DNA of 64,000 nt. Source: Lachnoanaerobaculum gingivalis. GTDB lineage: Bacteria; Bacillota; Clostridia; Lachnospirales; Lachnospiraceae. Below are positions 1-29,356 of this stretch, piece after piece. Below the pieces are notes generated by a model, which saw only the letters and a list, made by a program, of their open reading frames with translations, searched no databases and had not been told where the DNA came from. The position numbers were made by a program, and so were the translations under genes. Where the stretch lies: contig NZ_RRCO01000001.1 in the NCBI RefSeq assembly GCF_003862475.1, positions 744,001 to 808,000 on the forward strand, given 5' to 3'. Every line of letters begins with the position of its first letter. The first letter of the stretch is position 1.

Positions 1-662
1 GCAGTTTCCACTTCTCCGAGACATTCGCTTGGATCTTTTCCACTGTTTTCAAAAATCTTATCAATTTCTCCCTCGGACACATTTTCCCAAATGCCCTTTG
101 TATAGAGAATTAAAATATCTGTATCAAAAAGCTTTATTTTCCCTGATATCACAGGTGAAAAATTCTTCTGCCCCAAGTATGCATATAGATTACTTCTTTG
201 TTCATGCCTTGATAGGGCATCTTCACTAAGTAACTCCTTTGATACCATCTCAGTACTTAGAGATGTATCGGTACTTTTGTAAAAAACCTTATTATTTCTG
301 TATAACCTTATTCTTGCATTTCCGGCATAGGCTAAACGTAAACTTTCATAATCAGTTATTGCAACTACTATTGACGCTTTCAATCTCATGTACTTTTCAG
401 CCTTTAAAAGTACTTCATTGGCATATTTTAGGTACTTATGTATACTCGTCTTTGACATTGACGGTTTTTCCTGAAATTTTGCAATTATACTTTCAACCGC
501 TTCCTTTGCAGACTCGGTATCTGCTATATCCTCAATACCGTCTGCCAATACATAACAGGCAAAATTATCAAGCTCTGCATAAGCAAAATAATCACTGTTT
601 TTAAGTGCACTGCCCTCTTCTGAAATAAAGTTTGTATTAAATCTGCTGTTTTGCTTACGCAT
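1..662 (-). CDS. PP2C-type protein phosphatase-like protein, partial (C-terminus outside window)
   Basis: The gene starts at ATG 662, preceded by GGAGGGGAC, and runs off the left edge, so only about 220 N-terminal residues are visible. The translation has the PP2C layout: an early FAYAELDNFACYVLADGIED stretch in the place of the usual D-G-MGG metal motif, then a helix rich in K/E, then strands around VVAITDYESLRLAYAGNARI, which match the PP2C core where the substrate is presented. PP2C enzymes remove phosphate from serine and threonine. It lies 10 bp after a second PP2C-like gene and downstream of two FHA genes, so it probably reverses the phosphorylation read by those FHA domains. The metal motif is DGIED rather than DGMGG, so activity is uncertain. 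Confidence 0.6.
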   Translation of the reverse strand, partial: MRKQNSRFNTNFISEEGSALKNSDYFAYAELDNFACYVLADGIEDIADTESAKEAVESIIAKFQEKPSMSKTSIHKYLKYANEVLLKAEKYMRLKASIVVAITDYESLRLAYAGNARIRLYRNNKVFYKSTDTSLSTEMVSKELLSEDALSRHEQRSNLYAYLGQKNFSPVISGKIKLFDTDILILYTKGIWENVSEGEIDKIFENSGKDPSECLGEVET

Positions 663-671
663 TGTCCCCTC

Positions 672-1487
672 CTATATTCCAATAAGTATCAGTCCCAGAT
701 TAGCCGTTTCTTCATCTTTATTCTTGATAACTTCTATAATCTCTCTCGCTTTTTCTTTGCATCCATTCTTTTTTACAAGAACCTCTTCAATTTCCCTAAC
801 TGAAATACTGTTTTGTACACTTTCAGTTATCATAACAACTATATCTTTTTTCTTTAATTTTATCTCGCTACTACTTACAAGAGGAGACATATAATCATCT
901 CTTCCTACAAAGTTATATGCCCTGTTTATATCTGAAATTCTAAGTGCCGCCTCTTTACTTAAAAGTCCCTTATTTACTTTTTCTTTTATAAGTTCCTCCA
1001 TAATCTGTCCCCTACTAAGAAGTATCAGTTCCTTACCACGAAATACATAAACATTCATATGTCCGACAATACCATACTTTAGTATATTTCTATTAAGTAT
1101 AAGACAACCTGCATATGCTTTTCCTGTCTCCAGTGTATTTAAAACATTTGTATTAGCTAATTTAAATGCCTTTTCAAAGAAATTATCCGGACTTTGTGTA
1201 CTGTCATATTGATTATATAATTTAGTAAAAGTTCTGACTGTTGTCAGTGCTGCAACTTTTCCGACATAATCTCTTCCTTCTCCTGCTGTAAGAATCGCCA
1301 TCATACCGGTATTCATTCTTTTAAGTCCATATGCATTTGCCTGAATCTGTCTTTTTCCTATATCAAGCACAGCCTCTGCATCAAATATCCGTTTTTTTTC
1401 TTCCGTAATTTTTATACATATTCTCATGATTAAAATTCCAAAAGCAATTGTAATGCAGATTACATCTGCCCAAAAAGCAGTTCCCAT
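672..1487 (-). CDS. Membrane-anchored PP2C-like (possibly degenerate) protein
   Basis: 271 residues. A single N-terminal hydrophobic helix (about residues 5-25) is followed by a cytoplasmic domain with PP2C-like order: ANAYGLKRMNTGMMAILTAG (short strand pair), a helix with AALTTVRTFTKLY, then GCLILNRNILKYGIVGHMNV, which resembles the PP2C core AxVGDS region, then GKELILLSRGQIMEELI and a late LKKKDIVVMITESV. The acidic metal ligands expected of an active PP2C are not obvious: GHMNV stands where GDSR-type sequence is expected. It may therefore be a pseudophosphatase or sensor. RBS AAGAGGTAAATA precedes the ATG. It sits between the zinc-ribbon FHA gene and the PP2C gene in one operon. Confidence 0.5.
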   Translation of the reverse strand: MGTAFWADVICITIAFGILIMRICIKITEEKKRIFDAEAVLDIGKRQIQANAYGLKRMNTGMMAILTAGEGRDYVGKVAALTTVRTFTKLYNQYDSTQSPDNFFEKAFKLANTNVLNTLETGKAYAGCLILNRNILKYGIVGHMNVYVFRGKELILLSRGQIMEELIKEKVNKGLLSKEAALRISDINRAYNFVGRDDYMSPLVSSSEIKLKKKDIVVMITESVQNSISVREIEEVLVKKNGCKEKAREIIEVIKNKDEETANLGLILIGI

Positions 1488-1516
1488 ATTTATTTACCTC
1501 TTATTGTTCTTAGTTT

Positions 1517-2008
1517 CTACCATGAAAACTGCTTACCACATAAAGCAATATATAAAAACTCGCTCTCACCCATGGTAATTACATCATATGTTTCCAAAAC
1601 CTGAGGTGTATACACAGCTTTTCCATTTAAATAGGTAATCCCTCCTCCTTCGGTACATATCAAAGTTCCTTCAAGGTCTCTTTCATCAAAGGATAAAATA
1701 GCATGATTTTCCTGTTTTATTGCATTATCACCTATAATTTGAATATCCATAGCATCTGTTCTTCCTATATAGTTTTTCCCAAATACTACTCTATAATCCT
1801 TTCCATACCTCGGTCCTTTAATGCATACCAACCATGCACACACAGGCTTTGTTTTTATTCTGATTAGACTTTCTTCAAGTTCCTCGTCATCAAAAGATTC
1901 CTCAATTTCTTTTCTTTCAGTCATATCCATGTTACAGTATGGACATATATTTCCATATCTTCTCTTTGAAAACATATGTCCATTTTTGCATCGTATTAAA
2001 TTTCCCAT
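1517..2008 (-). CDS. Zinc-ribbon plus FHA-domain protein
   Basis: 163 residues. The N-terminus carries a zinc-ribbon pattern, CKNGHMFSKRRYGNICPYC (about residues 7-25), followed by an acidic linker. An FHA domain (about 65-155) has GKNYIGRTDAMDIQI as the GR strand and loop, a QENHAILSFDE stretch corresponding to the conserved S-x-x-H turn, and a late TYLNGKAV in place of the usual N-G. FHA domains bind phosphothreonine peptides. The usual SxxH serine is replaced (QENHA), so binding may be altered. It begins 5 bp after the preceding FHA gene and is clearly cotranscribed with it. Such zinc-ribbon/FHA fusions fit a signalling adaptor for the kinase/phosphatase pathway implied by the neighbouring PP2C genes; no kinase lies in the window. 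Confidence 0.65.
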   Translation of the reverse strand: MGNLIRCKNGHMFSKRRYGNICPYCNMDMTERKEIEESFDDEELEESLIRIKTKPVCAWLVCIKGPRYGKDYRVVFGKNYIGRTDAMDIQIIGDNAIKQENHAILSFDERDLEGTLICTEGGGITYLNGKAVYTPQVLETYDVITMGESEFLYIALCGKQFSW

Positions 2009-2013
2009 AACTC

Positions 2014-2541
2014 TTACCTTATCTGTAATTTATTCAGTCCAATAAAAATATAGTCGTTTTTTACAAGTCTACTTTGTCCGTCTCTTATATTATAAAGTTT
2101 ATCCTCTAAAAAACCTTTAATCTGTGTTCCGTTCTTACTCTGCATATCTTCTATATACCAGAGCCCCTCCACATAATTAAGTACTGCATGAATATCACTT
2201 ACCGTTCCACCAAAAGCAGTATCGCACAGGTCTATATCTATATCTTCCTCACTATTTTTCTTTCCTATTACAACCGAATTCTTCCCTAATATACTCCAAC
2301 TTCTTATAACTGTATTTTCCTCGCTTAAAAGTACAAGTTCTGACAAAAATGTATCTTGTATCTTTTCTCTTTTTAAAGAAAAGTCCTTTATCAAAAAATA
2401 AATCAAAGAACCTGAAACTAAAAAAGAAAACATATAAAATATATATCCGCCATTCCATGCTCTTCCAAAGATCCCTGTAATTATGGCGCACAATATAGCC
2501 ATAGTTATACCTAAAATATCAATTAAACATCTTTTATTCAT
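2014..2541 (-). CDS. Membrane protein with C-terminal FHA domain
   Basis: 175 residues. Two hydrophobic helices (about residues 8-25 and 31-50) form a hairpin anchor, so the remainder is cytoplasmic. The FHA domain follows: VVIGKKNSEEDIDIDL, VSDIHAVLNYVEGLWYIEDM with the S-x-x-H-like SDIHA, and the classic QSKNGTQIKG loop, all strong FHA hallmarks. It recruits phosphothreonine partners to the membrane. It is the first gene after a terminator that ends the sheath/tube transcript, and its ribosome site is buried in a hairpin (2550-2573). In type VI systems and in T7SSb, FHA proteins link the machine to Thr phosphorylation; here the same role is inferred from context. Confidence 0.7.
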   Translation of the reverse strand: MNKRCLIDILGITMAILCAIITGIFGRAWNGGYIFYMFSFLVSGSLIYFLIKDFSLKREKIQDTFLSELVLLSEENTVIRSWSILGKNSVVIGKKNSEEDIDIDLCDTAFGGTVSDIHAVLNYVEGLWYIEDMQSKNGTQIKGFLEDKLYNIRDGQSRLVKNDYIFIGLNKLQIR

Positions 2542-2549
2542 ATATCTCT

Positions 2550-2573
2550 CCCCTACTTTTATTCAAGTAGGGG
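2550..2573 (-). promoter_or_regulatory. Hairpin sequestering the FHA gene ribosome site
   Basis: A perfect 9-bp inverted repeat, CCCCTACTT ... AAGTAGGGG with a 6-nt loop, ends 8 bp upstream of the ATG at 2541. On the minus-strand RNA the 3' arm supplies the GGGG of the ribosome site (GGGGAGAG), so folding would hide it. There is no T-run after it, so it is not a terminator. Confidence 0.5.
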
Positions 2574-2644
2574 TGATTTATTCTCCCTACTCGTCTACAT
2601 GACGGTATTTGCTGCAAGGCGATAATTCCCTGACGCCAACACTA

Positions 2645-2680
2645 TAAAAAAACAAGGCTGCATGACAAGTCATACAGCCT
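2645..2680 (-). terminator. Rho-independent terminator after the tube genes
   Basis: On the minus strand, AGGCTGTATGAC and GTCATGCAGCCT pair with one mismatch around a 2-nt loop and are followed by a run of seven T. It lies 25 bp after the stop of the second tube-like gene and separates highly expressed structural genes from the FHA/PP2C genes. Confidence 0.8.
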
Positions 2681-2704
2681 ACATTTCTAACGGCTGATTA
2701 TCTG

Positions 2705-3133
2705 TTATTCGGCTGCATAACCGCCTTCCACTATCAGACCTGCCATTTTATCTTTTTTCTGTTTTATTACAAGAGTAAAGTTTCCAACGCCTTCCTCATC
2801 TCCATGCCTCTCTGTATAAGCAACTACAAATGCATTAGGAAATACATATTTTCTTTTTGTAATTCCTGCTACAATCTGCTCTACAGTAACCTTTCTGTAG
2901 CAATCTTTGCTCTGTGCAGGAACCATTGACCAAAGTGCCATGTTTTTTGTAGAATCAAAAGGATCTCCATCTACCGCAGTCAGAATCTTTCCTGTGATTT
3001 CCATGGTAGCACCGGCATCATTGGTACGTGCATTTGAATCAATCGGAATATCAGTAGATAAAAACACACTGTTTACGCATTCCTTTGCCAGTTCAAAACT
3101 TTCATTACCCTCAATTTTTACTTTATATGCCAT
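2705..3133 (-). CDS. Hcp/tail-tube-like structural protein, copy 2
   Basis: 142 residues, no signal peptide, no membrane segment. It is a clear paralogue of the preceding gene: both share DSNA.{1,3}TD-type sequence near residue 40, LALWS/LAKWS-P near 70-75, DCYR, then RKYVFPNAFVVAYTE, a GxFxLxIxQKKDK strand and a terminal EGGYA. The all-beta pattern with an N-terminal strand and a conserved C-terminal strand fits a ring-forming tube subunit of a contractile machine. Some databases give such proteins an uninformative protease name; I see no protease motif. A strong RBS (TAGGAGGGT) lies ahead of the ATG. The tube assignment is inferred from size, duplication and its place directly after a sheath-like gene. 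Confidence 0.45.
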   Translation of the reverse strand: MAYKVKIEGNESFELAKECVNSVFLSTDIPIDSNARTNDAGATMEITGKILTAVDGDPFDSTKNMALWSMVPAQSKDCYRKVTVEQIVAGITKRKYVFPNAFVVAYTERHGDEEGVGNFTLVIKQKKDKMAGLIVEGGYAAE

Positions 3134-3152
3134 GCTTAAACCCTCCTATTCC

Positions 3153-3578
3153 TTATTCTCCGGCATATCCGCCTTCTACAGTCACTTTCGCATTATTATC
3201 CTTCTTTTGACGGATATGAATGTAAAACTCTCCTGTTCCGTTCACATCATCTGCCCTCTCAGAATACTCTACAACAAAAGCATTTGGAATGACATACTTC
3301 CTTACAACAGCTCCTGCTGAAACTACTGTAACCTCTGCCACTCTGTAACAATCTGCATTTTCAGATGGTATTTGAGACCATTTTGCCAACTTTAATACGT
3401 CATCACTGTCAGCTCCGACATTGTACAAAACTCGTCCCCATACCTTGACTCCTAAGCCATAATCTGTCGCCTTAGCATTGGAATCTTTCGGTGACTCTGA
3501 TAAAAATTCAGCATTTACAATACTTCTCTCATCAAAGTCCGCTACTTCTGAACCGGTTACTCTGAATCTAATTCCCAT
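3153..3578 (-). CDS. Hcp/tail-tube-like structural protein, copy 1
   Basis: 141 residues, paralogous to the next gene and separated from it by 19 bp. Signature blocks are KDSNAKATDYGLGVKVWGRV, LAKWSQIPSENADCYRVAEV, VRKYVIPNAFVVEYSE and FYIHIRQKKDNNAKVTVEGG. The ordered beta strands and absence of catalytic residues favour a structural subunit. Two tube paralogues side by side would allow a mixed or staged tube, or one could be an adaptor. About 100 bp separate it from the upstream sheath-like gene. Identification as Hcp-like is inference; a structure prediction would decide it. Confidence 0.45.
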   Translation of the reverse strand: MGIRFRVTGSEVADFDERSIVNAEFLSESPKDSNAKATDYGLGVKVWGRVLYNVGADSDDVLKLAKWSQIPSENADCYRVAEVTVVSAGAVVRKYVIPNAFVVEYSERADDVNGTGEFYIHIRQKKDNNAKVTVEGGYAGE

Positions 3579-3679
3579 TGTGCTACCTCCTATAAAAGTA
3601 TTATTATAGTAAAACCTCTTAAAATATTATAAAAATATTTTTCGACTAACAAAGTTGCAGGTATATTACTTTATGTAAT

Positions 3680-5851
3680 TTATTCTCCTGCACGGTTTAA
3701 CGGTACTTCAAGTCTCTTTATTGCATTACCGAAGCTTATTTCTATTGTGCATACACCTGCTGTTTCATCCGCTTCATAGGTAATATCATCACCTGCACCA
3801 AGTATAGCATTAATATTTGACCTCTTTGAAAGCCAAACACTCTTTTGACTTGAAGGATTATTAGAGAAAAACTTACCTATATTCTCTGATTTGAAGTCAC
3901 CTGTTGCATGTCTTAAAATTCTTTCAATATAATTAGCTGTTTGTGTTTTATAAATCGGCTCATAACTTCCACCCGACAGTTTTAAATTTCTTGCTTTGTA
4001 AACCATTATATGGCTGATATTTTCTCCATCTAATACCGCATTCTCAGAAGAAAATACAAATCCGAATCCTCTTTTGTTAATATCATCTTTAACACTATTA
4101 GTAAACCCGGTTATCTCTTTAGACATTGTAGTATGTACCTTAAGTGAATTGTTCTTAGCCTCAATATCAAATCTCACTCCCGGTAAATCAGTATCAACAT
4201 CTTTTTTAAAGTACTCTTTTAAATACTCCGGAGACTGATAACTTGCCACAAATCCGGCCGCCACATAAGCTGCGCCTATATATACTCCATCTATCCAGAG
4301 TTTCATAATATCTTCTTTCGCCTTAGAAAGTTCTGCCGCCTCGTTTTCATTGATTATCATCTTGCTTTCAAGCTTTACCCCCGACTTATCCTTTGGAATA
4401 ATGGTAAAGTTAGGCACACATGGAATCAAATATTCTGAATAAGGCTTTCCGCTAAGACCTGAACATCTATCATCAAAAAATCCTACACCGGTCATTGCCA
4501 TACTGTTAAATGTTGTCTTATCTCCGGTTTCATATGAATAAAAACACTGTACACCATAGTCCTTTAGTGCATCCGCAATCCTTGCCAATGATTCAACGCT
4601 TATATTCTCTGATTTTACACTGTCTTTATTACCTTTAAACCTCTCTCTTGTTACATTCATCTTTGATTTTTCATCTAAAGACACACCTGCAACAATTGCA
4701 TACCATACAGTATTACTGTAATCATTTTTTTCATTCACTGTATTCAGATATGCACAAAGTTTTGGTACATTTAAACTGTTTGCCATAACTTCATTTTTTA
4801 CATTTGCAATAAGCAGTGTCGGTTTCATACCTTTTACCTGCTTTGGATACTGCTCAAAAAATGCCCATACACCTAAAATTTTTTCAACTAAAGGTTTTAC
4901 AACTTTTATAAAATCATCCTTTGCATTCTTATAAAATTCAAGATATGTATTATAGTTTGCCACTTCTTTTTTGACATCTATCTGACTTTGCATAGTTGAA
5001 TTTAAAGGACAAAATGTTCTTACTACCAGCTGCTTTACATAGCTGTTACCCTCAGCATTAAGTGCATCATAATCCTCCTCAAGGGCTTCTATCAAGCCGG
5101 CATTTGAGTTATCATCTGCAAGAACAAGTCTGCTCTCTTCCACTTTCGGTGCTTCAATTACTGTAAGTTCTCCCTCAGAAGACATTGTTAGAAGCCCTAA
5201 TGTTAATGCGTCATTACTCTTTGACTCTTCTGATTCCCCCAATAAAAGTCTTGTTTTTATATCGGAAATTGCCAACGGAATCATAGCCATAAGGTTTTGA
5301 TAATTTGCACTTGCCTCTTCAAACATTGAATTAAGTTTATCCCCGAGATCAAGCTTATGAGGGTCTCCGTCTTCAAGCTTTGCATACTCTGCATATGTAT
5401 ACTGAAGTTCTTTTCTAACCTGCTTGATATCATCCATTACTTTTGACGGTGAAATCATCTCTGTAAGCTTTTCAAATTTAAAATCTGCATTTATAATTCC
5501 CTGACTTCTTTTTGTCTCCACCAAGGTCATAAGCATTTTCAAAAAATCATTATGTGCATTTAGATGAACTATGCTTAGCATATTCTCCGGAACACCTGCA
5601 GGTTTCTCTTTTGAATATACAATTTTCCCCGTTGATGCATTAAAAAAAGAGTATACTGTAGGGTCAAACTTTTCTAAAAACTCATCAAAATCTTTAACCA
5701 AAAGTGCTTCATTGATTTCCTTTACTTTATCATCACTTAGACTATCCAACCCTCTTACATCACCTACTAAAGTGAGTAAGTTCAGTTTCTCCGGATTAAT
5801 CTCTTCAATCAATAAAGTACGATTCGTTTGCCTTATAATACTCTCTGCCAT
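3680..5851 (-). CDS. Large sheath-like protein (possible fused TssB/TssC-type contractile sheath)
   Basis: 723 residues from ATG 5851, chosen because AAAGGAGACGCAAGG sits just upstream; the longer frame to 5893 has no ribosome site. No signal peptide or membrane helix. The N-terminus (LNLLTLVGDVRGLDSLSDD, then LLVKDFDEFLEKFDP) resembles the small-sheath TssB pattern of a strand followed by an NF-DEVL-type helix. The central part contains long helices. The C-terminus (YIERILRHATGD, then DITYEADETAGVCTIEISFG and a final LEVPLN) resembles the TssC C-terminal handshake strands. The size equals TssB plus TssC fused with an insertion. Two tube-like genes follow in the same operon. The sheath call is inference from layout and weak similarity; an unrelated large structural protein is the alternative. 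Confidence 0.4.
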   Translation of the reverse strand: MAESIIRQTNRTLLIEEINPEKLNLLTLVGDVRGLDSLSDDKVKEINEALLVKDFDEFLEKFDPTVYSFFNASTGKIVYSKEKPAGVPENMLSIVHLNAHNDFLKMLMTLVETKRSQGIINADFKFEKLTEMISPSKVMDDIKQVRKELQYTYAEYAKLEDGDPHKLDLGDKLNSMFEEASANYQNLMAMIPLAISDIKTRLLLGESEESKSNDALTLGLLTMSSEGELTVIEAPKVEESRLVLADDNSNAGLIEALEEDYDALNAEGNSYVKQLVVRTFCPLNSTMQSQIDVKKEVANYNTYLEFYKNAKDDFIKVVKPLVEKILGVWAFFEQYPKQVKGMKPTLLIANVKNEVMANSLNVPKLCAYLNTVNEKNDYSNTVWYAIVAGVSLDEKSKMNVTRERFKGNKDSVKSENISVESLARIADALKDYGVQCFYSYETGDKTTFNSMAMTGVGFFDDRCSGLSGKPYSEYLIPCVPNFTIIPKDKSGVKLESKMIINENEAAELSKAKEDIMKLWIDGVYIGAAYVAAGFVASYQSPEYLKEYFKKDVDTDLPGVRFDIEAKNNSLKVHTTMSKEITGFTNSVKDDINKRGFGFVFSSENAVLDGENISHIMVYKARNLKLSGGSYEPIYKTQTANYIERILRHATGDFKSENIGKFFSNNPSSQKSVWLSKRSNINAILGAGDDITYEADETAGVCTIEISFGNAIKRLEVPLNRAGE

Positions 5852-5893
5852 CCTTGCGTCTCCTTTAAAAAATATTAAGTTTTTTACTTGCAC

Positions 5894-6208
5894 CTAATAC
5901 TACCTTCTTAAAAATGCACAAAAATACCCCTCATTTTCTCCTATAATATCACATCAAGCGCAAGACTTTACGTCCACATTTTCTAATATTTGCATTTTAT
6001 ATATTTTTCTTCACACTTTTCTTACTGGTTTAATATTATCATATGAAAACTATATTTTCAATACTAATAATATAAAATTTATTTTCCGGAGTTAAAAATA
6101 TCCTGACAAAGCGGCAAGGCCAAAACACCTTGTATTGTCGGTTGTATAATTAATGTTGGGGTTTGGCATTTGCCAATCTCAACATTTTTTATTACTATAA
6201 ATAAAAAA
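5894..6208. other. Intergenic region with a plus-strand hairpin
   Basis: No coding frame is convincing here. It must contain the promoter of the sheath operon (minus strand); TATTAT at about 5944-5949 is a possible -10 but no good -35 accompanies it. At 6152-6186 a long imperfect hairpin (AATGTTGGG ... CTCAACATT enclosing TTTGGCA/TGCCAA) is followed by six T on the plus strand, so a plus-strand transcript may end here, or the hairpin may act as an attenuator for the micro-ORF at 6257. Confidence 0.4.
6152..6190 (+). terminator. Plus-strand terminator or attenuator hairpin
   Basis: AATGTTGGG pairs with CTCAACATT and the inner TTTGGCA pairs with TGCCAA, followed by TTTTTT. There is no plus-strand gene upstream for it to serve, so it either ends a small RNA or attenuates transcription into the 23-codon frame that starts 70 bp downstream. 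Confidence 0.5.
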
Positions 6209-6246
6209 CCTCCAAGTTCCCGGTTCATGACAATTACACTTGGAGG
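6209..6246 (+). promoter_or_regulatory. Inverted repeat covering the micro-ORF ribosome site
   Basis: CCTCCAAGT at 6209-6217 is a perfect complement of ACTTGGAGG at 6238-6246 with a 20-nt loop. The right arm contains the GGAGG that, with the next bases GAGG, forms the ribosome site of the frame at 6257. Folding would block translation, an arrangement common for small toxic peptides. Confidence 0.5.
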
Positions 6247-6256
6247 AGGTGTTCAT

Positions 6257-6328
6257 ATGAACTACTTAGCTAAAATTTTAGGCATATATGATGCTTATTA
6301 TATCTTTAATTTGATTAAAAAAATATGA
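6257..6328 (+). CDS. 23-residue hydrophobic micro-peptide, candidate
   Basis: ATG AAC TAC ... TGA encodes a 23-residue peptide that is hydrophobic with basic residues near both ends (MNYLAKILGIYDAYYIF, then a lysine-rich end). A very strong ribosome site (GGAGGAGGTG) lies 7 nt upstream, inside a perfect inverted repeat, and a terminator-like hairpin lies about 70 bp further upstream. It is the only plus-strand coding signal in a long minus-strand region and abuts a truncated family A pseudogene. It could be a type I toxin-like membrane peptide or a leader peptide. No family is recognised; expression is unproven. Confidence 0.35.
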   Translation: MNYLAKILGIYDAYYIFNLIKKI

Positions 6329-6329
6329 C

Positions 6330-6659
6330 CTATATTTGAAAGGAGCCAAGGGTAGGTAAATCACCTAAAATATAGGGCTTTGTAACTTCATCATATATAT
6401 CCAGCAGTATCGGTTCAGTTTCTATTATTCTGATATTTCCTTTACTATCTGTATACTCCATATTTGCACCGGCATACAACATCATTCTGTATTTTTTCCA
6501 GCCATCTTCCGTAAATTCGACTGCTTCTGTCCTTCTCATGTCTTCCAATTTTTTTATTCTTTCTTTAAGTAGATGATTTCCTTATATCAATAATACCAAG
6601 GAAAGTATTACTAGGCATAAAATCCACCTAAACTTTAGTCTACTCCTTATCTGAACCAT
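6330..6659 (-). pseudogene. Family A membrane protein, truncated copy
   Basis: From ATG 6659, with the same AAGGAGAAGCTT leader as the next copy, the frame reads the family A start (RLKFRWILC) but has a TAA inside the membrane helix. It resumes with GNHLLKER, RTEAVEFTEDGWKKYRMMLY and ILGDLPTLGSFQI, then stops at 6330, where the intact copies continue with TEGK/TEGE. The NFNDNM half is missing. The break lies against the micro-ORF region, so a deletion or insertion joined the two. It is the 3'-most member of the array. Confidence 0.75.
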
Positions 6660-6669
6660 AAGCTTCTCC

Positions 6670-7341
6670 TTATGACCAATCTTTATACTTATCCTTAAAT
6701 AATTCAAATAAAGTAATCACATTCTCTGATATTTCTTTACTCTCTCCATTACCATAATCATATATAAACTTTCCGGGTTGACCTGTTCTGTCATGTCCAA
6801 CTATATCAAGTTCATTTATATATTTAACTCCTTCATCATTTCGCTTATTCATATATTCCCACAGTTCTTCAAAACTATTTATATCTTTAAACTCTTCCAA
6901 TCCCTCATTCTCAGAAATAGTCATATATCTGCCCTCACGATTATTCCATATCTTTAAGTGCGACATATTATCATTGAAGTTTTGTATAAATTCTGATGTT
7001 CTTTTACCTTCAGTTATCCGAAAGTAGCCGAGGGAAGGTGTCTTACCTAAAATATATGGATCTATAGCTTCATCAAATACATCTAAAAGCACAGGTTCTG
7101 TTTCTATTACTTTGATATTTCCTTTACTATCGGTATACTCCATATTTGCACCTGCATACTTCATCATTCTGTATTTCTTCCAGCCATCTTCCATAAAATC
7201 GAATGCCTCTATCATTCTCATGTCTTCCAATTTTTTAGCTCTTTCTTTAAGTAAATGATTTCCATATATCAATAATACTATGAAAAATATTATGAAGCAT
7301 AAAATCCACCTGAACTTCAGCCTACTCTTTATTCTAACCAC
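6670..7341 (-). CDS. Family A membrane-anchored protein (NFNDNM family)
   Basis: 223 residues starting at GTG 7341, with AAGGAG seven bases upstream. A basic N-terminus is followed by one membrane helix (about 11-29, WILCFIIFFIVLLIYGN), so the bulk is probably outside the cell. Conserved blocks are EDGWKKYRMMKYAGANMEYT, YILGKTPSLGYFRITEG, IQNFNDNMSHLKIWN, FEELWEYMNKRNDEG and a final VGHDRTGQPGKFIYDYGNG. It is highly similar to the next gene, 10 bp away. No known domain is recognised. Tandem multiplication and membrane anchoring suggest an immunity-type or surface-interaction protein; this is inference. Confidence 0.6.
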   Translation of the reverse strand: MVRIKSRLKFRWILCFIIFFIVLLIYGNHLLKERAKKLEDMRMIEAFDFMEDGWKKYRMMKYAGANMEYTDSKGNIKVIETEPVLLDVFDEAIDPYILGKTPSLGYFRITEGKRTSEFIQNFNDNMSHLKIWNNREGRYMTISENEGLEEFKDINSFEELWEYMNKRNDEGVKYINELDIVGHDRTGQPGKFIYDYGNGESKEISENVITLFELFKDKYKDWS

Positions 7342-7351
7342 AAGCTTCTCC

Positions 7352-8023
7352 TTATGACCAATCTTTATACTTTTCTCTAAATAAACTTAATAAACTAACT
7401 ATATTAATTGAAAGTTTTTTGATTTTCCCATCTCCATAATCATATATAAACCTTGCATCTTGTGCTGTTCTGTCATACCCAACTATGTCAAGTTCATTTA
7501 TATATATAACTCCTTCATCATTTCGCTTATTCATATACTCCCACAGTTCTTCAAAACTATTTATATCCTCAAATTCTTCAAACCCCTCATTCTCAGCAAT
7601 CGTTATATATCTATTCTCATGTGCACTCCTTATCTTTATATGTTCCATATTATCATTAAAATTTCGTATCAGTTCTGGTGTTTCTTCACCCTCAGTTATT
7701 TGGAAGGAGCCAAGTGTAGATAAATCACCTAAAATATAAGGTTTTATAACTTCATCATATATATCTAAAAGCACGGGTTCAGTTTCTATTATTCTGATAT
7801 TTCCTTCACTATCTGTATACTCCATGTTTGCACCGGCATACAACATCATTCTGTATTTTTTCCAGCCATCTTCCATAAATTCTAATGATTCTTTTTTTCT
7901 CATATCTTCCAATTTTTTAGCTCTTTCTTTAAGTAAATAATTTCCATATATTAATAATGCTAAGGAAAATATTATGAAGCATAAAATCCACCTAAACTTC
8001 AACCCTCTCTTTATTCTAACCAT
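7352..8023 (-). CDS. Family A membrane-anchored protein (NFNDNM family)
   Basis: 223 residues, the closest relative of the gene after it: the first 100 residues are nearly the same (membrane helix, EDGWKKYRMMLYAGANMEYT, ILGDLSTLGSFQITEG). The part after NFNDNMEHIKIRSAHENRY differs more, and the C-terminus (KLSINIVSLLSLFREKYKDW) is distinct. The pattern of a conserved anchor half and a diversified outer half is what paralogues under selection for different partners would show. Start at ATG 8023 with GAGGTAGAT upstream. It follows the 8029 gene by only 5 bp, so these genes are one operon. Function is not known. Confidence 0.6.
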   Translation of the reverse strand: MVRIKRGLKFRWILCFIIFSLALLIYGNYLLKERAKKLEDMRKKESLEFMEDGWKKYRMMLYAGANMEYTDSEGNIRIIETEPVLLDIYDEVIKPYILGDLSTLGSFQITEGEETPELIRNFNDNMEHIKIRSAHENRYITIAENEGFEEFEDINSFEELWEYMNKRNDEGVIYINELDIVGYDRTAQDARFIYDYGDGKIKKLSINIVSLLSLFREKYKDWS

Positions 8024-8028
8024 ATCAT

Positions 8029-8697
8029 CTACCTCAAGGAGTTATCTTTAAACAAGTCTAATATTCCCATTACATCATTTTCTTCTAAAATCTTCTCTTC
8101 TCCATTTCCATAATCATATATAATCTTTGCCGGTTGTTCAGTCCCATCATATCCTATCGTATCTAATACTCCCATATTAGATAACCCCTCAACCTTTTCA
8201 TGACTTAAATATTCCCACAATTCATTTATATTTTTCACCTCAGTGAACTCCATTATTCTTTCAGTTTCAGCTATTGTTTTATATTTTTCTTCAGCATAAT
8301 TCCATAACTTAATATGTTTCATATTGTCATTAAAATTCTTTATTCTTTCCTGTGTGTATTCTCCTTCTATAAAACGATAGCTACCAAATTTATCCGTTTT
8401 CCCGGCAATATATTCTTCCTCATCTGCATCTATACGTTTCATATCATTGTCCTCTTCTATTATAAATACCTCACCTTTATGATTTGTAAACTCTAATTTT
8501 GCATACACGAATTTTGAAAGTCTATATCGTAAAAGACCTTCACTACTAAAATTATAAGCCTTTTGTTCTCTATCAAATCTCACTTGTTCAATATATGCTT
8601 TTAATTTCTGCACTCCCAATATCAAAATACCTGCAAGAATAAAAAATAAATATATACATATTATATTTCTTAATTTTCTTTTTGCCTCACTACTCAT
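8029..8697 (-). CDS. Family A membrane-anchored protein, subgroup with MSSEAKRK start
   Basis: 222 residues; RBS AAAGGGGAATAAAA ahead of ATG 8697. N-terminus MSSEAKRKLRNIICI, membrane helix to about residue 31 (IYLFFILAGILILGVQKL), then FSSEGLLRYRLSKFVYAKLE, YIAGKTDKFGSYRFIEGEYT, IKNFNDNMKHIKLWNYAEEK, NINELWEYLSHE and IGYDGTEQPAKIIYDYGNGE. Its first 125 residues are almost the same as the copy at 15063-15734, about 7 kb away, whereas the C-terminal parts diverge. Probably an exported, membrane-tethered protein. An immunity role is an inference from the tandem array. Confidence 0.6.
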   Translation of the reverse strand: MSSEAKRKLRNIICIYLFFILAGILILGVQKLKAYIEQVRFDREQKAYNFSSEGLLRYRLSKFVYAKLEFTNHKGEVFIIEEDNDMKRIDADEEEYIAGKTDKFGSYRFIEGEYTQERIKNFNDNMKHIKLWNYAEEKYKTIAETERIMEFTEVKNINELWEYLSHEKVEGLSNMGVLDTIGYDGTEQPAKIIYDYGNGEEKILEENDVMGILDLFKDNSLR

Positions 8698-12731: not shown

Positions 12732-13433
12732 TCATTCACCTCCAACTTTTACATCTCTCTGATATTCATAGGTTCTATATGTCATAGTAAATAATTCTCT
12801 AATACCTATTGTTCCACTCTCATGTATAACATTTTCTGTTCCATCACCCATATCAAATGTTATCCTCCCATTTAAGCCTGAACCATCTAATCCTATTACT
12901 GAAAGAGCATACAGATAATATTCACCATTTTTTGTTAGTTTGTGCATGTATGCTATGAGTTCCTCCAAATTCTTTATCTCTTTAAACTCCTCCATTCCCT
13001 CTCCCTCAGATATAGTCTTTGGTGGGATAGGAATTCCTGCTCCGTTCTCTCCACTTATCCTTATATGTTTCATATTGTCATTAAAATTATCTATATATTT
13101 CTGCATATTTTCATTTTCTATGATTTTGTAGTTATAAAGGCTACGTTTCTTCCCTGATATATATTCTGCAATATCTTGGCTGACTATATCGGTAAAGCTT
13201 TCATTCTGATTCGTAATTATCCAACTTTTCCCTGTATTATCACTGCATTCCAATTCCATTTCCAGCATATCTGCCAAAGTTACTGTAATAGCTATTTCTT
13301 CATAGTATTTAAGTGCTCTATCTCTTCTTTTTTCATCCAAATACTCTATGCCAACTATCACTATAAACACTAAAGTCAATATACTTGTAATTACTAGGAT
13401 TACCTTAAGTTTATTTTTCTCAACCACATTCAT
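12732..13433 (-). CDS. Family A membrane-anchored protein (GIPIPPKT subgroup)
   Basis: 233 residues. The start MNVVEKNKLKVILVITSILT leads into one membrane helix (about 9-28), then KRRDRALKYYEEIAITVTLA, LECSDNTGKSWII, YISGKKRSLYNYKII, IDNFNDNMKHIRISGENGAG, IPIPPKTISEGEGMEEF, LEELIAYMHKLTKNGEYYLY and SVIGLDGSGLNGRITFDMGD. The last 15 residues (MTYRTYEYQRDVKVGGE) are longer than in the sister copies. It is upstream of the broken copy and downstream of two near-identical copies. Predicted to face outward; function unknown, immunity-like by context. Confidence 0.6.
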   Translation of the reverse strand: MNVVEKNKLKVILVITSILTLVFIVIVGIEYLDEKRRDRALKYYEEIAITVTLADMLEMELECSDNTGKSWIITNQNESFTDIVSQDIAEYISGKKRSLYNYKIIENENMQKYIDNFNDNMKHIRISGENGAGIPIPPKTISEGEGMEEFKEIKNLEELIAYMHKLTKNGEYYLYALSVIGLDGSGLNGRITFDMGDGTENVIHESGTIGIRELFTMTYRTYEYQRDVKVGGE

Positions 13434-13457
13434 ATATTCTCCTTAGCCAAAACTGCT

Positions 13458-14114
13458 TTAATACTTTTGGAATAGATCTCCTAAATACAATACACCATAT
13501 TCATCTATGATTTTTTCTTCTCCATTATCTGATTCATATGTTATTCTACCACTAAATCCCGTTCCGTCTAATCCAACCACATAAAGAGCATACAGATAAT
13601 ATTCACCATTTTTTGTTAATTTGTGCATATATGTTGTCAGTTCATCTAAACTCTTTATTTCTTGAAACTCCTCCATTCCCTCTCCCTCAGATATAGTCTT
13701 TGGTGGGATAGGAATTCCTGCTCCGTTCTCTCCACTTATTCTTATATGCTTCATATTGTCATTAAAATTATCTATATATTTCTGTATATATTCATTTTTT
13801 ATAATTTTGTAGTTGTAAAGACTCTGCTTCTCCCCTGATATATAATCTGTAATATCCTTAGTAACTATGTCAAGTAAACTTATATCACTCCCATTTATAA
13901 CCCAAGTATTCCCTTTATTATCACTGCATTCCAAGTCCATTCCCAGTGTACCTGCCAAAATTACTGTAGTAGATATTTCATTATAGTATTTAAGTGCTCT
14001 ATCTCTTCTTTTTTCATCCAAATACTCTATGCCAACTATCACTATAAACACTAAAGTCAATATACTTGTAATTACTAGGATTACCTTAAGTTTATTTTTC
14101 TCAACCACATTCAT
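13458..14114 (-). CDS. Family A membrane-anchored protein, tandem duplicate 1
   Basis: 218 residues, identical to the following copy apart from the fourth residue from the end (LFQKY against LFKKY). Membrane helix at about 9-28, then LECSDNKGNTWVINGSDISL, NFNDNMKHIRISGENGAG, GIPIPPKTISEGEGMEEFQE and GRITYESDNGEEKIIDEYG. The RBS (AAGGAGAATAT) and the 24-bp spacer are also duplicated. Such a recent duplication means the copy number of this locus is still changing. Function is not known. Confidence 0.6.
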   Translation of the reverse strand: MNVVEKNKLKVILVITSILTLVFIVIVGIEYLDEKRRDRALKYYNEISTTVILAGTLGMDLECSDNKGNTWVINGSDISLLDIVTKDITDYISGEKQSLYNYKIIKNEYIQKYIDNFNDNMKHIRISGENGAGIPIPPKTISEGEGMEEFQEIKSLDELTTYMHKLTKNGEYYLYALYVVGLDGTGFSGRITYESDNGEEKIIDEYGVLYLGDLFQKY

Positions 14115-14138
14115 ATATTCTCCTTAGCCAAAACTGCT

Positions 14139-14795
14139 TTAATACTTTTTGAATAGATCTCCTAAATACAATACACCATATTCATCTATGATTTTTTCTT
14201 CTCCATTATCTGATTCATATGTTATTCTACCACTAAATCCCGTTCCGTCTAATCCAACCACATAAAGAGCATACAGATAATATTCACCATTTTTTGTTAA
14301 TTTGTGCATATATGTTGTCAGTTCATCTAAACTCTTTATTTCTTGAAACTCCTCCATTCCCTCTCCCTCAGATATAGTCTTTGGTGGGATAGGAATTCCT
14401 GCTCCGTTCTCTCCACTTATTCTTATATGTTTCATATTGTCATTAAAATTATCTATATATTTCTGTATATATTCATTTTTTATAATTTTGTAGTTGTAAA
14501 GACTCTGCTTCTCCCCTGATATATAATCTGTAATATCCTTAGTAACTATGTCAAGTAAACTTATATCACTCCCATTTATAACCCAAGTATTCCCTTTATT
14601 ATCACTGCATTCCAAGTCCATTCCCAGTGTACCTGCCAAAATTACTGTAGTAGATATTTCATTATAGTATTTAAGTGCTCTATCTCTTCTTTTTTCATCC
14701 AAATACTCTATGCCAACTATCACTATAAACACTAAAGTCAATATACTTGTAATTACTAGGATTACCTTAAGTTTATTTTTCTCAACCACATTCAT
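14139..14795 (-). CDS. Family A membrane-anchored protein, tandem duplicate 2
   Basis: 218 residues; sister of the gene at 13458-14114 (one residue different; few nucleotide differences, including a silent one before the NFNDNM codons). Same anchor, same GIPIPPKT block, same C-terminal GDLF-KKY. Because the two are almost the same at DNA level, one may have arisen from the other by unequal crossing-over. Assembly collapse or expansion could also affect the true number of copies. Confidence 0.6.
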   Translation of the reverse strand: MNVVEKNKLKVILVITSILTLVFIVIVGIEYLDEKRRDRALKYYNEISTTVILAGTLGMDLECSDNKGNTWVINGSDISLLDIVTKDITDYISGEKQSLYNYKIIKNEYIQKYIDNFNDNMKHIRISGENGAGIPIPPKTISEGEGMEEFQEIKSLDELTTYMHKLTKNGEYYLYALYVVGLDGTGFSGRITYESDNGEEKIIDEYGVLYLGDLFKKY

Positions 14796-14819
14796 ATATT
14801 CTCCTTAGCCAAAACTGCT

Positions 14820-15050
14820 TTAATACTTTTTGAATAGATCTCCCAAATACAATACCTCATATTCATCTATGATTTTTTCTTCTCCATTGATTGCCATTTT
14901 AGTGGTCAAATCCACTACCGACTTATCTCCTTGTTTCCCATAAAGATTACCTGCTGTAACCATCGTTTCCAATATCTTTACATGCTTGCAAACATAGAGT
15001 CATATAGTTAACATCACCTTTACTTTTTATATTACAGGATGTAACAATAC
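14820..15050 (-). pseudogene. Chimeric remnant: unknown gene fused to a family A C-terminus
   Basis: From about 14990 the minus strand reads MVTAGNLYGKQGDKSVVDLT, then TKMAINGEEKIIDEYE and VLYLGDLFKKY, stopping at 14820. The last part is the family A tail, the first part is not family A. Upstream, in another frame, GDVNYMTLCLQACKDIGND is visible. This is a fusion produced by recombination between array members and a lost neighbour. No start codon with a ribosome site was found. Confidence 0.55.
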
Positions 15051-15062
15051 CACAAAATATCA

Positions 15063-15734
15063 CTATATATCTTTAAGATAATTCTCAAATAATATCCCAA
15101 GTGATAAAGTACCTGACTCTGTTATAATATGACTCTCCCCATTTCCATAATCATATATAATCTTTGTAGGCTGATTGGTTCCGTCATAACCAATTATGTC
15201 CAGCTTCCCTATATTTGATATCCCATCAGGAGCTTCAGTAATCATATATTCATATAATTCATCTATATTTTTCACTTCAATGAACTCTTCCATTTTCTCA
15301 TTCTCGGTTATTGTTACATATTTTTTTTCAGAATAATCCCATAACCTAATATGTTTCATATTGTCATTAAAATTCTTTATTCTTTCCTGTGTGTATTCTC
15401 CTTCTATAAAACGATAGCTACCAAATTTATCCGTTTTCCCGGCAATATATTCTTCCTCCTCTGCATCTATACGTTTCATATCATTTTCGTCTTCTATTAT
15501 AAATGCCTCTCCTTTATGGTTTGTAAACTCTAATTTTGTATACACGAATTTTGAAAGTCTATATCGTAAAAGACCTTCACTACTAAAATTATAAGCCTTT
15601 TGTTCTCTATCAAATCTCACTTGTTCAATATATGCTTTTAATTTCTGCACTCCCAATATCAAAATACCTGAAAGAATAAAAAATACATATATACATATTA
15701 TATTTTTTAATTTTCTTTTTGCCTCACTACTCAT
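15063..15734 (-). CDS. Family A membrane-anchored protein, MSSEAKRK subgroup
   Basis: 223 residues from ATG 15734, the start conserved in the 8029 paralogue; an in-frame ATG at 15746 is possible. Membrane helix IYVFFILSGILILGVQKL, then SEGLLRYRLSKFVYTKLE, YIAGKTDKFGSYRFIEGEYT, IKNFNDNMKHIRLWDYSEKK and TNQPTKIIYDYGNGESHI. The first 125 residues are almost the same as the 8029 copy, and then the two diverge, so the conserved half and variable half are again visible. Function unknown; probably surface-exposed. Confidence 0.6.
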   Translation of the reverse strand: MSSEAKRKLKNIICIYVFFILSGILILGVQKLKAYIEQVRFDREQKAYNFSSEGLLRYRLSKFVYTKLEFTNHKGEAFIIEDENDMKRIDAEEEEYIAGKTDKFGSYRFIEGEYTQERIKNFNDNMKHIRLWDYSEKKYVTITENEKMEEFIEVKNIDELYEYMITEAPDGISNIGKLDIIGYDGTNQPTKIIYDYGNGESHIITESGTLSLGILFENYLKDI

Positions 15735-15757
15735 TTTTATTCCCATTTAAAAAGTTC

Positions 15758-16132: not shown

Positions 16133-16480
16133 CTAATACTTTTTAAACAATTCCATCAAATACAATACGCCATCTTCATCTATAACTTTCTCTTCACCGT
16201 TATCTGATACATATGTTATTCTGCCATTAAATCCCGATCCATCTAATTTTCCACTTGGCTTACCTTTGTAAATAATGCCGCACCTATAAGTTTTTCATTC
16301 TGATACGCTCTAGTCTTTACATCACTTTCTTTCATTAACATATACTCATTAATCACTTCTCTATGCTCAAGTCTGCTGACTCTTGCTACAACAGCCAATT
16401 TCTCATCAAGAAATGTCAGTCTTCCCCTATATCATAATATTCCCTTACAGCAATCTTATACTATACTTTACCTGAATCAA
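16133..16480 (-). pseudogene. Family A C-terminal fragment plus unidentified debris
   Basis: 16133-16245 reads GSGFNGRITYVSDNGEEKVI, DEDGVLYLMELFKKY and stop, a family A tail without a body. Upstream (16250-16430) another frame gives LAVVARVSRLEHREVINEY and MLMKESDVKTRAYQNEKLIG, which belongs to some other lost protein I do not recognise. Between 16083 and 16495 there is no intact gene. Confidence 0.5.
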
Positions 16481-20648: not shown

Positions 20649-21473
20649 ATGCTTAAATTTTTAGGTGTGTCTCGATCCGGATATCATTCTTTTCTTAATA
20701 GAAAACTATCTTCTACTATTCAGAGGAAGGAAGCTATTAAGAAGAATATCCGGCTTATTTATGATGCTTCAAAACAAAACTATGGTGCTCCTAAAATAAC
20801 CAAAGAACTTCGTAAGTCAGGTGAAACTATTGCTGAGCGCACTGTAGGAAAATATATGCGTGAAATGGGTATTAAAGCCCAATGGATTAAGCCTTTTACT
20901 ACCACCACCAGAGACTCTGATTTTAGTACTGAACTTACAAACATACTTGATGAACAATTTAACCCGGAACGCCCTAATGCCGTATGGTGTACAGATATTA
21001 CCTATATATGGACTCAAAACGGCTTTGTTTACCTTAATTGTGTTATGGACTTATTTGCTAGGAAAATAATAGCCTGGACACTTTCTGATACTATGGAAGT
21101 ATCAACAGTTGTAGCAACCATTAATAAAGCAAAGACTTATCGTAACACCGAATCGCCTTTAATAATACATTCTGATCGTGGCAGCCAGTATGTATCAAAT
21201 GCTTGGCGTGAAGCCACTAAAACTATGCAACGAAGCTATTCTCGTTGTGCCTATCCATATGACAATGCGTGCATTGAATCATTTCATTCATTGATTAAAA
21301 GAGAATGGCTAAACAGATTCAGTATTCAAGACCACAGCCACGCATATAGGCTTGTATTTGAGTACATTGAAGCCTTTTATAACACGGTAAGGATTCATAG
21401 TCATTGTGATTATATGTCTCCTGACGAGTTTGAAAAGCTATATAATAAGGCACTTGTTCTTACAGCATCTTAG
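20649..21473 (+). CDS. IS3-family transposase OrfB (DDE integrase core)
   Basis: 274 residues from the first ATG; the frame is open upstream to about 20574 and joins orfA by a -1 shift. HTH_21-type start (YDASKQNYGAPKITKELRKS), then the rve integrase core with WCTDITYIWTQNG (first D), IIHSDRGSQYVS (second D) and ACIESFHSLIKREW (catalytic E), ending NTVRIHSHCDYMSP-EF. All three DDE residues are present. It makes the strand cuts in transposition. Confidence 0.92.
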   Translation: MLKFLGVSRSGYHSFLNRKLSSTIQRKEAIKKNIRLIYDASKQNYGAPKITKELRKSGETIAERTVGKYMREMGIKAQWIKPFTTTTRDSDFSTELTNILDEQFNPERPNAVWCTDITYIWTQNGFVYLNCVMDLFARKIIAWTLSDTMEVSTVVATINKAKTYRNTESPLIIHSDRGSQYVSNAWREATKTMQRSYSRCAYPYDNACIESFHSLIKREWLNRFSIQDHSHAYRLVFEYIEAFYNTVRIHSHCDYMSPDEFEKLYNKALVLTAS

Positions 21474-28699: not shown

Positions 28700-29356
28700 T
28701 TAATACTTTTCGAATAAATCTCCTAAATACAATACCCCATATTCATATATGATTTTTTCTTCTCCATCATCTGATTTATATGTTATTCTGCCACTAAATC
28801 CCGATCCATCTAATCCAACCACAGAAAGAGCATACAAATAATATTCTCTGTCTTTTGTTAATTTATGCATATATGCTATCAACTCATCCAAGTTCATTAT
28901 TTCATGAAACTCATCCATTCCCTCTCCCTCTGATACCGTCTTCGGTGGGATAGGAATTCCTGCTCCGTTCTCTCCACTTATTCTTATATGCTTCATATTG
29001 TCATTAAAATTATCTATATATTTCTGCATATATTCATTTTTTATAATTTTGTAGTTGTAAAGACTCTGCTTATCCCATGATATATAATCTGTAATATCCC
29101 TAGTAACCATGTCAAGTAAACTTGTATCACTCCCATTCATGACCCAGGTATTCCCTTTATTATCACTGCATTCCAAGTCCATTCCCAGTGTATCTGCCAG
29201 AATTACTGTAGTAGATATCTCATTATAGTATTTAAGTGCTCTATCTCTTCTTTTTTCATTCAAATACTCTATGCCAACTATCACTATAAACACTAAAGTC
29301 AATATACTTGTAATTATTAGGATTATCTTAAGTTTATTTTTCTCAACCACATTCAT
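28700..29356 (-). CDS. Family A membrane-anchored protein (GIPIPPKT subgroup)
   Basis: 218 residues, about 90 percent alike to the tandem duplicates at 13.5-14.8 kb although about 14 kb away. Anchor helix LKIILIITSILTLVFIVIVG; then CSDNKGNTWVMNGSDTSLLD, IDNFNDNMKHIRISGENGAG, IPPKTVSEGEGMDEFHEIMN, LDELIAYMHKLTKDREYYLY and GRITYKSDDGEEKIIYEYGV. RBS AAGGAGGATAT. It is the first family A gene in the transcription direction of the array, and the only intact copy upstream of the family B block. Confidence 0.6.
   Translation of the reverse strand: MNVVEKNKLKIILIITSILTLVFIVIVGIEYLNEKRRDRALKYYNEISTTVILADTLGMDLECSDNKGNTWVMNGSDTSLLDMVTRDITDYISWDKQSLYNYKIIKNEYMQKYIDNFNDNMKHIRISGENGAGIPIPPKTVSEGEGMDEFHEIMNLDELIAYMHKLTKDREYYLYALSVVGLDGSGFSGRITYKSDDGEEKIIYEYGVLYLGDLFEKY

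Follow-up and report, generated by a model that had tools for sequence, protein, structure and literature searches.

A gene cluster at the left end of a 64,000-nucleotide stretch of Lachnoanaerobaculum gingivalis DNA (the window, C1:744001-808000, in a genome of 3.10 Mb) probably encodes a contractile injection system that forms its own lineage in Bacillota, monoderms included, and whose core would work as a contractile injector. The parts of this core, each recognised by fold, profile or curated model, are a single-chain sheath, VgrG-like spikes, DUF4280 tips, an Rhs protein and an Hcp-fold tube whose two paralogues are fixed. The original prediction, made from the letters of the window, had proposed a contractile machine with FHA/PP2C phospho-control in a monoderm; the tube, the sheath and the spike were recovered, whereas the kinase, the AAA+ ATPase, a known baseplate and an intact PP2C were not. 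Every gene that it named is present in the list of open reading frames (ORFs) of the window, all of them on the minus strand, and the arrangement of the locus is not due to chance, since other Bacillota families have these genes next to one another as well.

Concerning the sheath, the 723-residue protein that had been taken for a fused sheath is, by its predicted fold, a sheath in one chain and not a TssB plus TssC pair. In the structure comparison its residues 7-710 align to single-chain sheaths, the best row being the contractile injection system (CIS) of Streptomyces, with R2 pyocin and phage P1 also among the best rows, and most sheath chains of the type VI secretion system (T6SS) align to residues ~291-711. 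A GTG start would give a longer form, and the N-terminus of the 723-residue form agrees with those of the relatives. The sheath is 100% identical to the sheaths of Lachnoanaerobaculum sp. ICM7 and OBRC5-5, members of a genus that we take to consist of oral monoderms. No curated family match was obtained for the sheath or for the tube.

The two small proteins proposed as tube subunits held up as well. Tube protein B is predicted to adopt the Hcp fold, and tube protein A, 40% identical to it, appears from its sequence to be an Hcp paralogue; both carry the motifs PNAFVV-x-Y and VEGGYA, as seen by sight, and the family gives a weak TssD signal in profile comparison. A tube gene was found by six-frame translation in 74 of 75 loci, and in the two-copy loci (n = 73) the first and the second tube genes fall into two separate clades with no exception.

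Furthermore, the spike genes expected to the left of the window are there, as VgrG-like, DUF4280 and Rhs genes. Among solved structures, the profile of the VgrG-like proteins picks up VgrG, Afp8 and Pvc8, the best and closest match being the T6SS VgrG 8gra (E 6.3e-20). The first copy alone matches 8gra at E 5e-4 and Phage_base_V just above the cut-off (24.2 vs 23.8 bits); the second copy has no meaningful Pfam match and is found at 7e-67 by a VgrG profile built without it. The DUF4280 domain scores above the cut-off in two operon proteins and, for Francisella IglG, has been argued to resemble PAAR (PMC5349215), so that a VgrG with a PAAR-like tip, as in the T6SS, is present. The Rhs gene carries DUF6531 and many RHS repeats. 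The family F17, considered as an Eag-type chaperone, was set aside, being without any Pfam or NCBIfam match. PADLOC gave no match for 10 proteins. Separately, a 62-residue frame at 16246-16419 of the window matches VgrG weakly (E 1.5e-5) and is perhaps a remnant or a chance match.

Relatives were sought by a contig scan whose patterns were derived from Bacillota sequences and whose scope is the relatives that those patterns can find. It returned 379 stretches coding for sheath relatives, of which the 80 best were retained for examination. One of 81 sheaths (<650 residues) was left out of the sheath tree, and X letters were dropped for some of the hidden Markov models (HMMs) and alignments, those of the longer regions among them. 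All of the 79 relatives in the tree are labelled as Bacillota but one, which is unlabelled, and the labelled families include Lachnospiraceae, Clostridiaceae, Oscillospiraceae, Acutalibacteraceae, Paenibacillaceae, Sporomusaceae, Veillonellaceae and Selenomonadaceae. The sheaths of Pelosinus and of the selenomonads group in one clade (Shimodaira-Hasegawa-like approximate likelihood ratio test, SH-aLRT, 97), which fits a long-held cellular system.

Gene order was read in 25 loci and 10 longer regions and counted over 81 loci; a locus entered a count only where its DNA reached far enough on the side in question, and the denominators differ accordingly. With variations, the loci typically read vWA, sheath, tube A, tube B, J-protein, an FHA protein with transmembrane (TM) stretches (FHA-TM), FHA-zinc ribbon, PP2C-like, PP2C-like/TM, the families F7 and F9, an Hsp70-like protein, the families F21 and F11, two VgrG genes, and DUF4280 or Rhs. 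The vWA gene is present in 50/68 loci and missing from those of Lachnoanaerobaculum, this one included; FHA-TM occurs in 62/71, FHA-zinc ribbon in 59/70 and PP2C in 54/62. In a distant copy (G068, sheath 28-29% identical), the sheath, tube, VgrG, F7, F9, Hsp70-like and F21 genes stand in one run, flanked by GTPase-like genes instead of FHA/PP2C, and the genes of this run are therefore taken as the machine core.

Co-occurrence points in the same direction. The sheath was found in 13 of 200 genomes of the family to which the window belongs (its own genome included). The tube is present in 13/13 of these and in 0/187 sheath-negative genomes, and so is VgrG at E<=1e-29, eleven other genomes showing weak matches only; the figures are 12/13 vs 0/187 for the Hsp70-like protein, 11/13 vs 0/187 for F7 and 12/13 vs 16/187 for DUF4280. 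In a phylum sample of 398 genomes, sheath and Hsp70-like protein occur in the same 13 and in 0/385 others. Fisher values range from 6e-11 to 1e-24 with kinship ignored, and the profiles, built from cluster members, could miss far relatives elsewhere. The DUF4280 gene of the 16 sheath-negative genomes is short (e.g. G080:C22:463215-474236, similar in G085, G104, G129 and G188), and some of these genomes have a weak VgrG-like match ~10 kb from it; these genes probably belong to a second, different phage-tail-like system.

Regarding the baseplate, also predicted to the left of the window, conserved proteins do stand there in a fitting position, but no known baseplate gene was recognised. We infer that F7, F9 and F21 are candidate baseplate parts. 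F7 and F9 are adjacent in nine of the ten longer regions; in the tenth, from this genome, DUF4280 and repeat-protein genes lie between them. Matches of F9 to DpnI (E 0.3), of F21 to Peptidase_C3 (0.0086) and of one of 24 F7 members to a GpP-like model (0.11) were weak and scattered and were taken as chance.

In the T6SS, the sheath is recycled by ClpV. No AAA+ ATPase, another gene expected in the adjacent DNA, was recognised there, and no large Walker-A protein recurs in the loci, although in four named loci such a protein lies several kb upstream of the sheath. Only one putative ATPase, the Hsp70-like protein, goes along with the sheath in nearly all cases; its motifs resemble the Hsp70 phosphate and adenosine signatures in 24, 30 and 29 of 32 members. 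A J-protein is found in most operons (58/71 loci), with the HPD motif in 46/47 called members, and is missing from the Lachnoanaerobaculum loci, including this one. It is proposed from these sequences that the Hsp70-like protein and the J-protein could disassemble or assemble the sheath; a reset by the Hsp70-like protein in place of ClpV is a tentative and somewhat doubtful idea.

As for the phospho-control, the FHA domain of the FHA-TM protein follows two TM-like stretches, and the next protein begins, by sight, with what looks like a zinc ribbon and scores 20.4 bits for FHA vs the Pfam cut-off of 20.7. The first PP2C-like protein reaches 50 bits against the Stp1 PP2C model, far below the cut-off of 230. 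At four columns where its relatives have D in 45, 46, 34 and 45 of 55, columns that presumably correspond to PP2C metal-binding motifs, it reads N/A/E/A, and because of this loss of aspartates it is probably a pseudophosphatase in this genome. The 612-residue protein shows weak, sub-cut-off Pfam matches to PP2C_2 (0.08) and TPR_21 (0.07) and a TM-like stretch at 253-282, and it groups by clustering with PP2C-like proteins of other loci.

The kinase anticipated just left of the window did not appear: no Ser/Thr kinase lies in or beside the cluster, and the genome has four kinase matches, all of them on other contigs (C8, C9 and C12). Judged by motif in called genes, a kinase is present in 0/81 loci and in 1/10 longer regions (G054), where it lies between vWA and sheath (C34, L114:15956-16861), is confirmed by Pfam (6e-34) and is the sole kinase seen inside such an operon; an extra PP2C with intact motifs stands further upstream (by sight). 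A vWA gene was not found in this genome with a one-protein query that had no positive control. The threonine phosphorylation pathway of the T6SS includes PpkA, PppA and Fha, and the monoderm version of it that had been envisaged is not borne out here, where FHA is found without a local kinase and with a PP2C that is probably inactive. A phospho-switch is plausible for the family; an FHA phospho-gate in this particular genome is possible, with chances a little short of even. Other FHA genes stand near Ser/Thr kinases at G000:C9:76181-85613 and C8:57644-59405, and a 1639-residue FHA open frame on C9 may be the EssC of a type VIIb secretion system (T7SSb).

Moreover, a LytTR-type regulator, a histidine kinase and an AgrB-like protein lie together upstream of or beside vWA in 12 of 81 loci (L034, L035, L037, L041, L052, L054, L056, L068, L073, L075, L076 and L081); counted singly, they occur in 17, 12 and 14 of the 51 loci with 6 kb upstream. 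The small peptides from L034, L041 and L081, three of three tested, are AgrD above the curated cut-off (36, 34.6 and 28.4 vs 19 bits). An AgrD-type quorum-sensing cassette may thus control the machine in such loci.

Table 1. Features of the operon in the window (plain coordinates) and in the adjoining regions (L006, L007 and L008).
Feature	Location	Strand	Remark
Predicted single-chain contractile sheath, 723 aa from ATG 5851 (737 aa from GTG 5893)	3680..5893	-	
Tube protein A, putative Hcp paralogue, 141 aa	3153..3578	-	40% identity to tube protein B; first-gene clade
Tube protein B, predicted Hcp paralogue, 142 aa	2705..3133	-	Assigned by fold
Terminator-like hairpin and T run, after the tube genes	2655..2680	-	
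Membrane FHA protein (FHA-TM)	2014..2541	-	Pfam FHA E 4.6e-9; TM-like 3-29, 32-52
Zinc-ribbon and FHA protein	1517..2008	-	Sub-cut-off Yop-YscD_cpl 6.9e-5, FHA 7e-4 (Pfam)
PP2C-like protein, N-terminal TM-like stretch 1-29	672..1487	-	NCBIfam Stp1 E 2e-13, sub-cut-off
PP2C-like N-terminal part of 612-aa TM protein, extending left beyond the window	1..662	-	Whole protein at L007:4824-6662
F7, 471 aa	L006:17521-18936		
First DUF4280 protein, 498 aa	L006:15998-17494		
Two leucine-rich-repeat-like proteins (by sight)	L006:14350-15981, 13523-14254		
F9, 230 aa	L006:12737-13429		
Hsp70-like protein, 866 aa	L006:10097-12697		
F21, 258 aa	L006:9302-10078		
Double-FHA-like protein, 321 aa	L006:8317-9282		
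F11, 175 aa	L006:7796-8323		
VgrG-like proteins, 450 aa and 420 aa	L006:6447-7799 and 5168-6430		
Second DUF4280 protein, 478 aa	L006:3684-5120		
More small genes, then Rhs gene of 1715 codons	Beyond the second DUF4280 gene, crossing into L008		

The operon, which is chromosomal, continues leftward from the window into L006 and L007 (Table 1). Around it, ~220-residue paralogues, several of them in tandem, stand at 6670-8697, 12732-15746 and 28700-29356 of the window and share, by sight, a motif like FNDNMKHI; they form a gene amplification next to the operon. Repeated genes of ~340 residues follow the Rhs gene (L008:4271-10452), with a shorter Rhs piece at L008:10457-12763, and two transposase-like genes were seen by sight near the operon, at 20649-21473 and 35974-37836 of the window.

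Several results weigh against the operon being an injector of this kind, or against the parts assigned to it. Foldseek by itself gave no sheath call. No recognisable baseplate gene was found, F7, F9 and F21, examined as possible counterparts of TssF, TssG and TssK, being without a Pfam match above the cut-off or a significant PDB-profile match, and F7 and F9 did not match the wedge profiles of Mu, P2 and phiCD27, a negative that excludes little because these profiles held two or three sequences each. The baseplate protein gp25 (PF04965) was not found anywhere in the genome, which is 99% complete; in E. coli and Synechococcus the control search gave matches. F7, F9 and the Hsp70-like protein were found in only 35/57, 25/57 and 33/57 loci, with <=10 kb downstream covered for the named loci, and the F7 of G068, detected by a local HMM (8e-9), was missed by the family-wide F7 profile search. 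The name of the Hsp70-like protein comes from its motifs and from weak, sub-cut-off Pfam matches (SrfB 0.014, HSP70 0.12); its profile had no match at E<=0.1 among solved structures. No ClpV model matched among the operon proteins scanned, the whole genome not having been searched for ClpV. Finally, the sheath tree shows mixing, e.g. a metagenome-assembled genome labelled Paenibacillaceae inside Lacrimispora.

Other explanations have to be considered together with these results. The operon might encode a lysis-released particle that drills holes in rivals, either a domesticated prophage tail or an R-type tailocin; such a particle would need no membrane platform, and phage tails have a sheath, a tube and a spike too, in line with the presence of R2 pyocin and phage P1 among the best structural rows. 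However, no phage-related structural genes were found by sequence: PHROGs against the 10 core proteins gave a best E of 0.009 (F11) and nothing for sheath or tube, phage records contained no match for sheath or tube B, and none of 249 pattern matches in viral contigs coded for a sheath relative. The ORF lists, read by eye, contain no capsid, terminase, portal or holin gene, and the operon has membrane proteins and Rhs/DUF4280 cargo, so this origin is highly improbable. The single-chain sheath and its best structural row would be accounted for by an extracellular contractile injection system (eCIS) or a cytoplasmic one of that type (Afp, PVC, Streptomyces CIS), which assembles free and is then released or fired in situ. 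Against it, gp25 is not found in the genome, no eCIS AAA+ ATPase was seen among the scanned proteins (no genome-wide search for Cdc48-like AAA+ was made), and DUF4280/Rhs cargo together with FHA/PP2C proteins is what we assume to be a more T6SS-like combination. eCIS clusters do occur in Bacillota (PMC8213781, PMC11566945) and the Streptomyces CIS, a monoderm system, requires the membrane protein CisA (PMC12237407), but the survey behind the eCIS counts demands ten known core genes (PMC8213781). We regard this explanation as quite unlikely.

The operon could also be a true member of the T6SS that has diverged and lost its outer-membrane parts. Its Hcp-like tube with a weak TssD signal, a VgrG nearest to 8gra, its FHA and PP2C neighbours and a DUF4280 tip as in the Francisella T6SS (PMC5349215) agree with this, and firmicutes are already tabulated under T6SS-linked toxins in one source (PMC3482391); on the other side stand the one-chain sheath, the missing gp25 and the absence of TssJLM and TssK models among the scanned operon proteins, the whole genome not having been searched for TssJLM, and such membership is unlikely. 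By strict membership the system is outside T6SS and eCIS, because its sheath is single-chain (T6SS) and gp25, the TssE of the T6SS, is lacking in the genome (both). Neither is it a T7SSb: an EssC-like neighbour, which would have pointed to such a locus, was not seen among the scanned neighbours. Lastly, the FHA/PP2C genes may serve another process, e.g. cell-wall or T7SSb control, and be mere neighbours of the tail genes. A terminator separates the tube genes from the FHA gene (four such hairpins with T runs occur in the window vs 2.3 expected, and a comparable one lies 3' of the second tube gene in 25/72 loci), the PP2C-like protein is degenerate in this genome and the G068 copy has no FHA/PP2C genes; yet FHA-TM and PP2C accompany the tube genes in the large majority of the loci counted above, which makes this very improbable.

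For the contractile injection system preferred here, the following cycle is proposed. The tube would grow inside the extended sheath on a baseplate of F7, F9 and F21, and docking to the membrane could involve two proteins, FHA-TM and PP2C-like/TM, the second of them with a helical part outside. Firing would be gated by FHA domains reading phosphorylated partners, and contraction would drive the tube outward, along with VgrG, the DUF4280 tip and whatever Rhs or DUF4280-fused cargo is attached. The spent sheath might then be taken apart by the Hsp70-like protein, replacing ClpV, together with the operon J-protein in most relatives, though not in this genus. The likely use is antagonism of neighbouring bacteria.

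In its widest form, to which we give an even chance, the proposal is that cell-borne contractile injection systems have a third major lineage, which is native to Bacillota and works in monoderms. It would have a single-chain sheath bearing a helical insertion, a tube for which both Hcp paralogues are obligate, a phosphorylation-sensing membrane platform of FHA and PP2C-like/TM proteins, and an Hsp70-like ATPase/J-protein reset replacing ClpV; in part of the gut lineages an adjoining AgrD-type quorum-sensing cassette would switch it on. Such a system has been conjectured from tip proteins (PMC5349215, PMC8651086), and no description of this machine was found in the open-licence literature of PubMed Central. 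A 2016 genome survey reports diderm-like secretion loci to be lacking in all monoderm genomes (PMC4793230), eCIS are placed in Paenibacillus and Ruminiclostridium (PMC8213781), diffocin is a further Gram-positive contractile system (PMC9230969), and firmicutes appear in a table of T6SS and PVC toxins (PMC3482391), which speaks somewhat against full novelty. With other Gram-positive contractile systems (Streptomyces CIS, eCIS, tailocins) already known, what is new is this lineage together with its parts. Beside these spike genes, a sheath and a tube that match no curated family are now identified in Lachnospiraceae of the mouth and gut, in Selenomonadaceae of the rumen, in Pelosinus and in Paenibacillus. 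A long-suspected weapon of Gram-positives, akin to the spring-loaded needle with which Gram-negative bacteria attack their neighbours, thereby becomes testable in culturable strains, gut Firmicutes are credited with one more likely means of antagonism, and the Hsp70-like protein offers a possible alternative to ClpV.

Compared with R-type tailocins, diffocin and contractile prophages, the sheath and tube folds are alike, whereas here no phage sequence relatives were found, the tips bear cargo and signalling genes adjoin. With eCIS and the Streptomyces CIS the single-chain sheath is common, and the differences are the FHA and PP2C-like membrane proteins, the DUF4280/Rhs spike cargo and the lack of gp25 and of a recognised eCIS AAA+ gene. 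The threonine phosphorylation pathway shares the FHA and PP2C-like genes, the vWA gene in most loci and, in one relative, a kinase within the operon; this genome differs in having no local kinase, no vWA gene found and a PP2C without the aspartates. Finally, the T6SS (i, ii of Francisella and iii of Bacteroidetes) is alike in the Hcp-fold tube, the VgrG spike, the PAAR-like DUF4280 tip, the Rhs cargo and the FHA/PP2C-type neighbours. It differs in its two-chain TssB/TssC sheath and in the gp25, ClpV and TssJLM that were not recognised here, where the predicted sheath is a single chain with a largely helical stretch resembling an insertion, an Hsp70-like gene is present, joined by a J-protein in most relatives outside this genus, and the hosts are monoderms.

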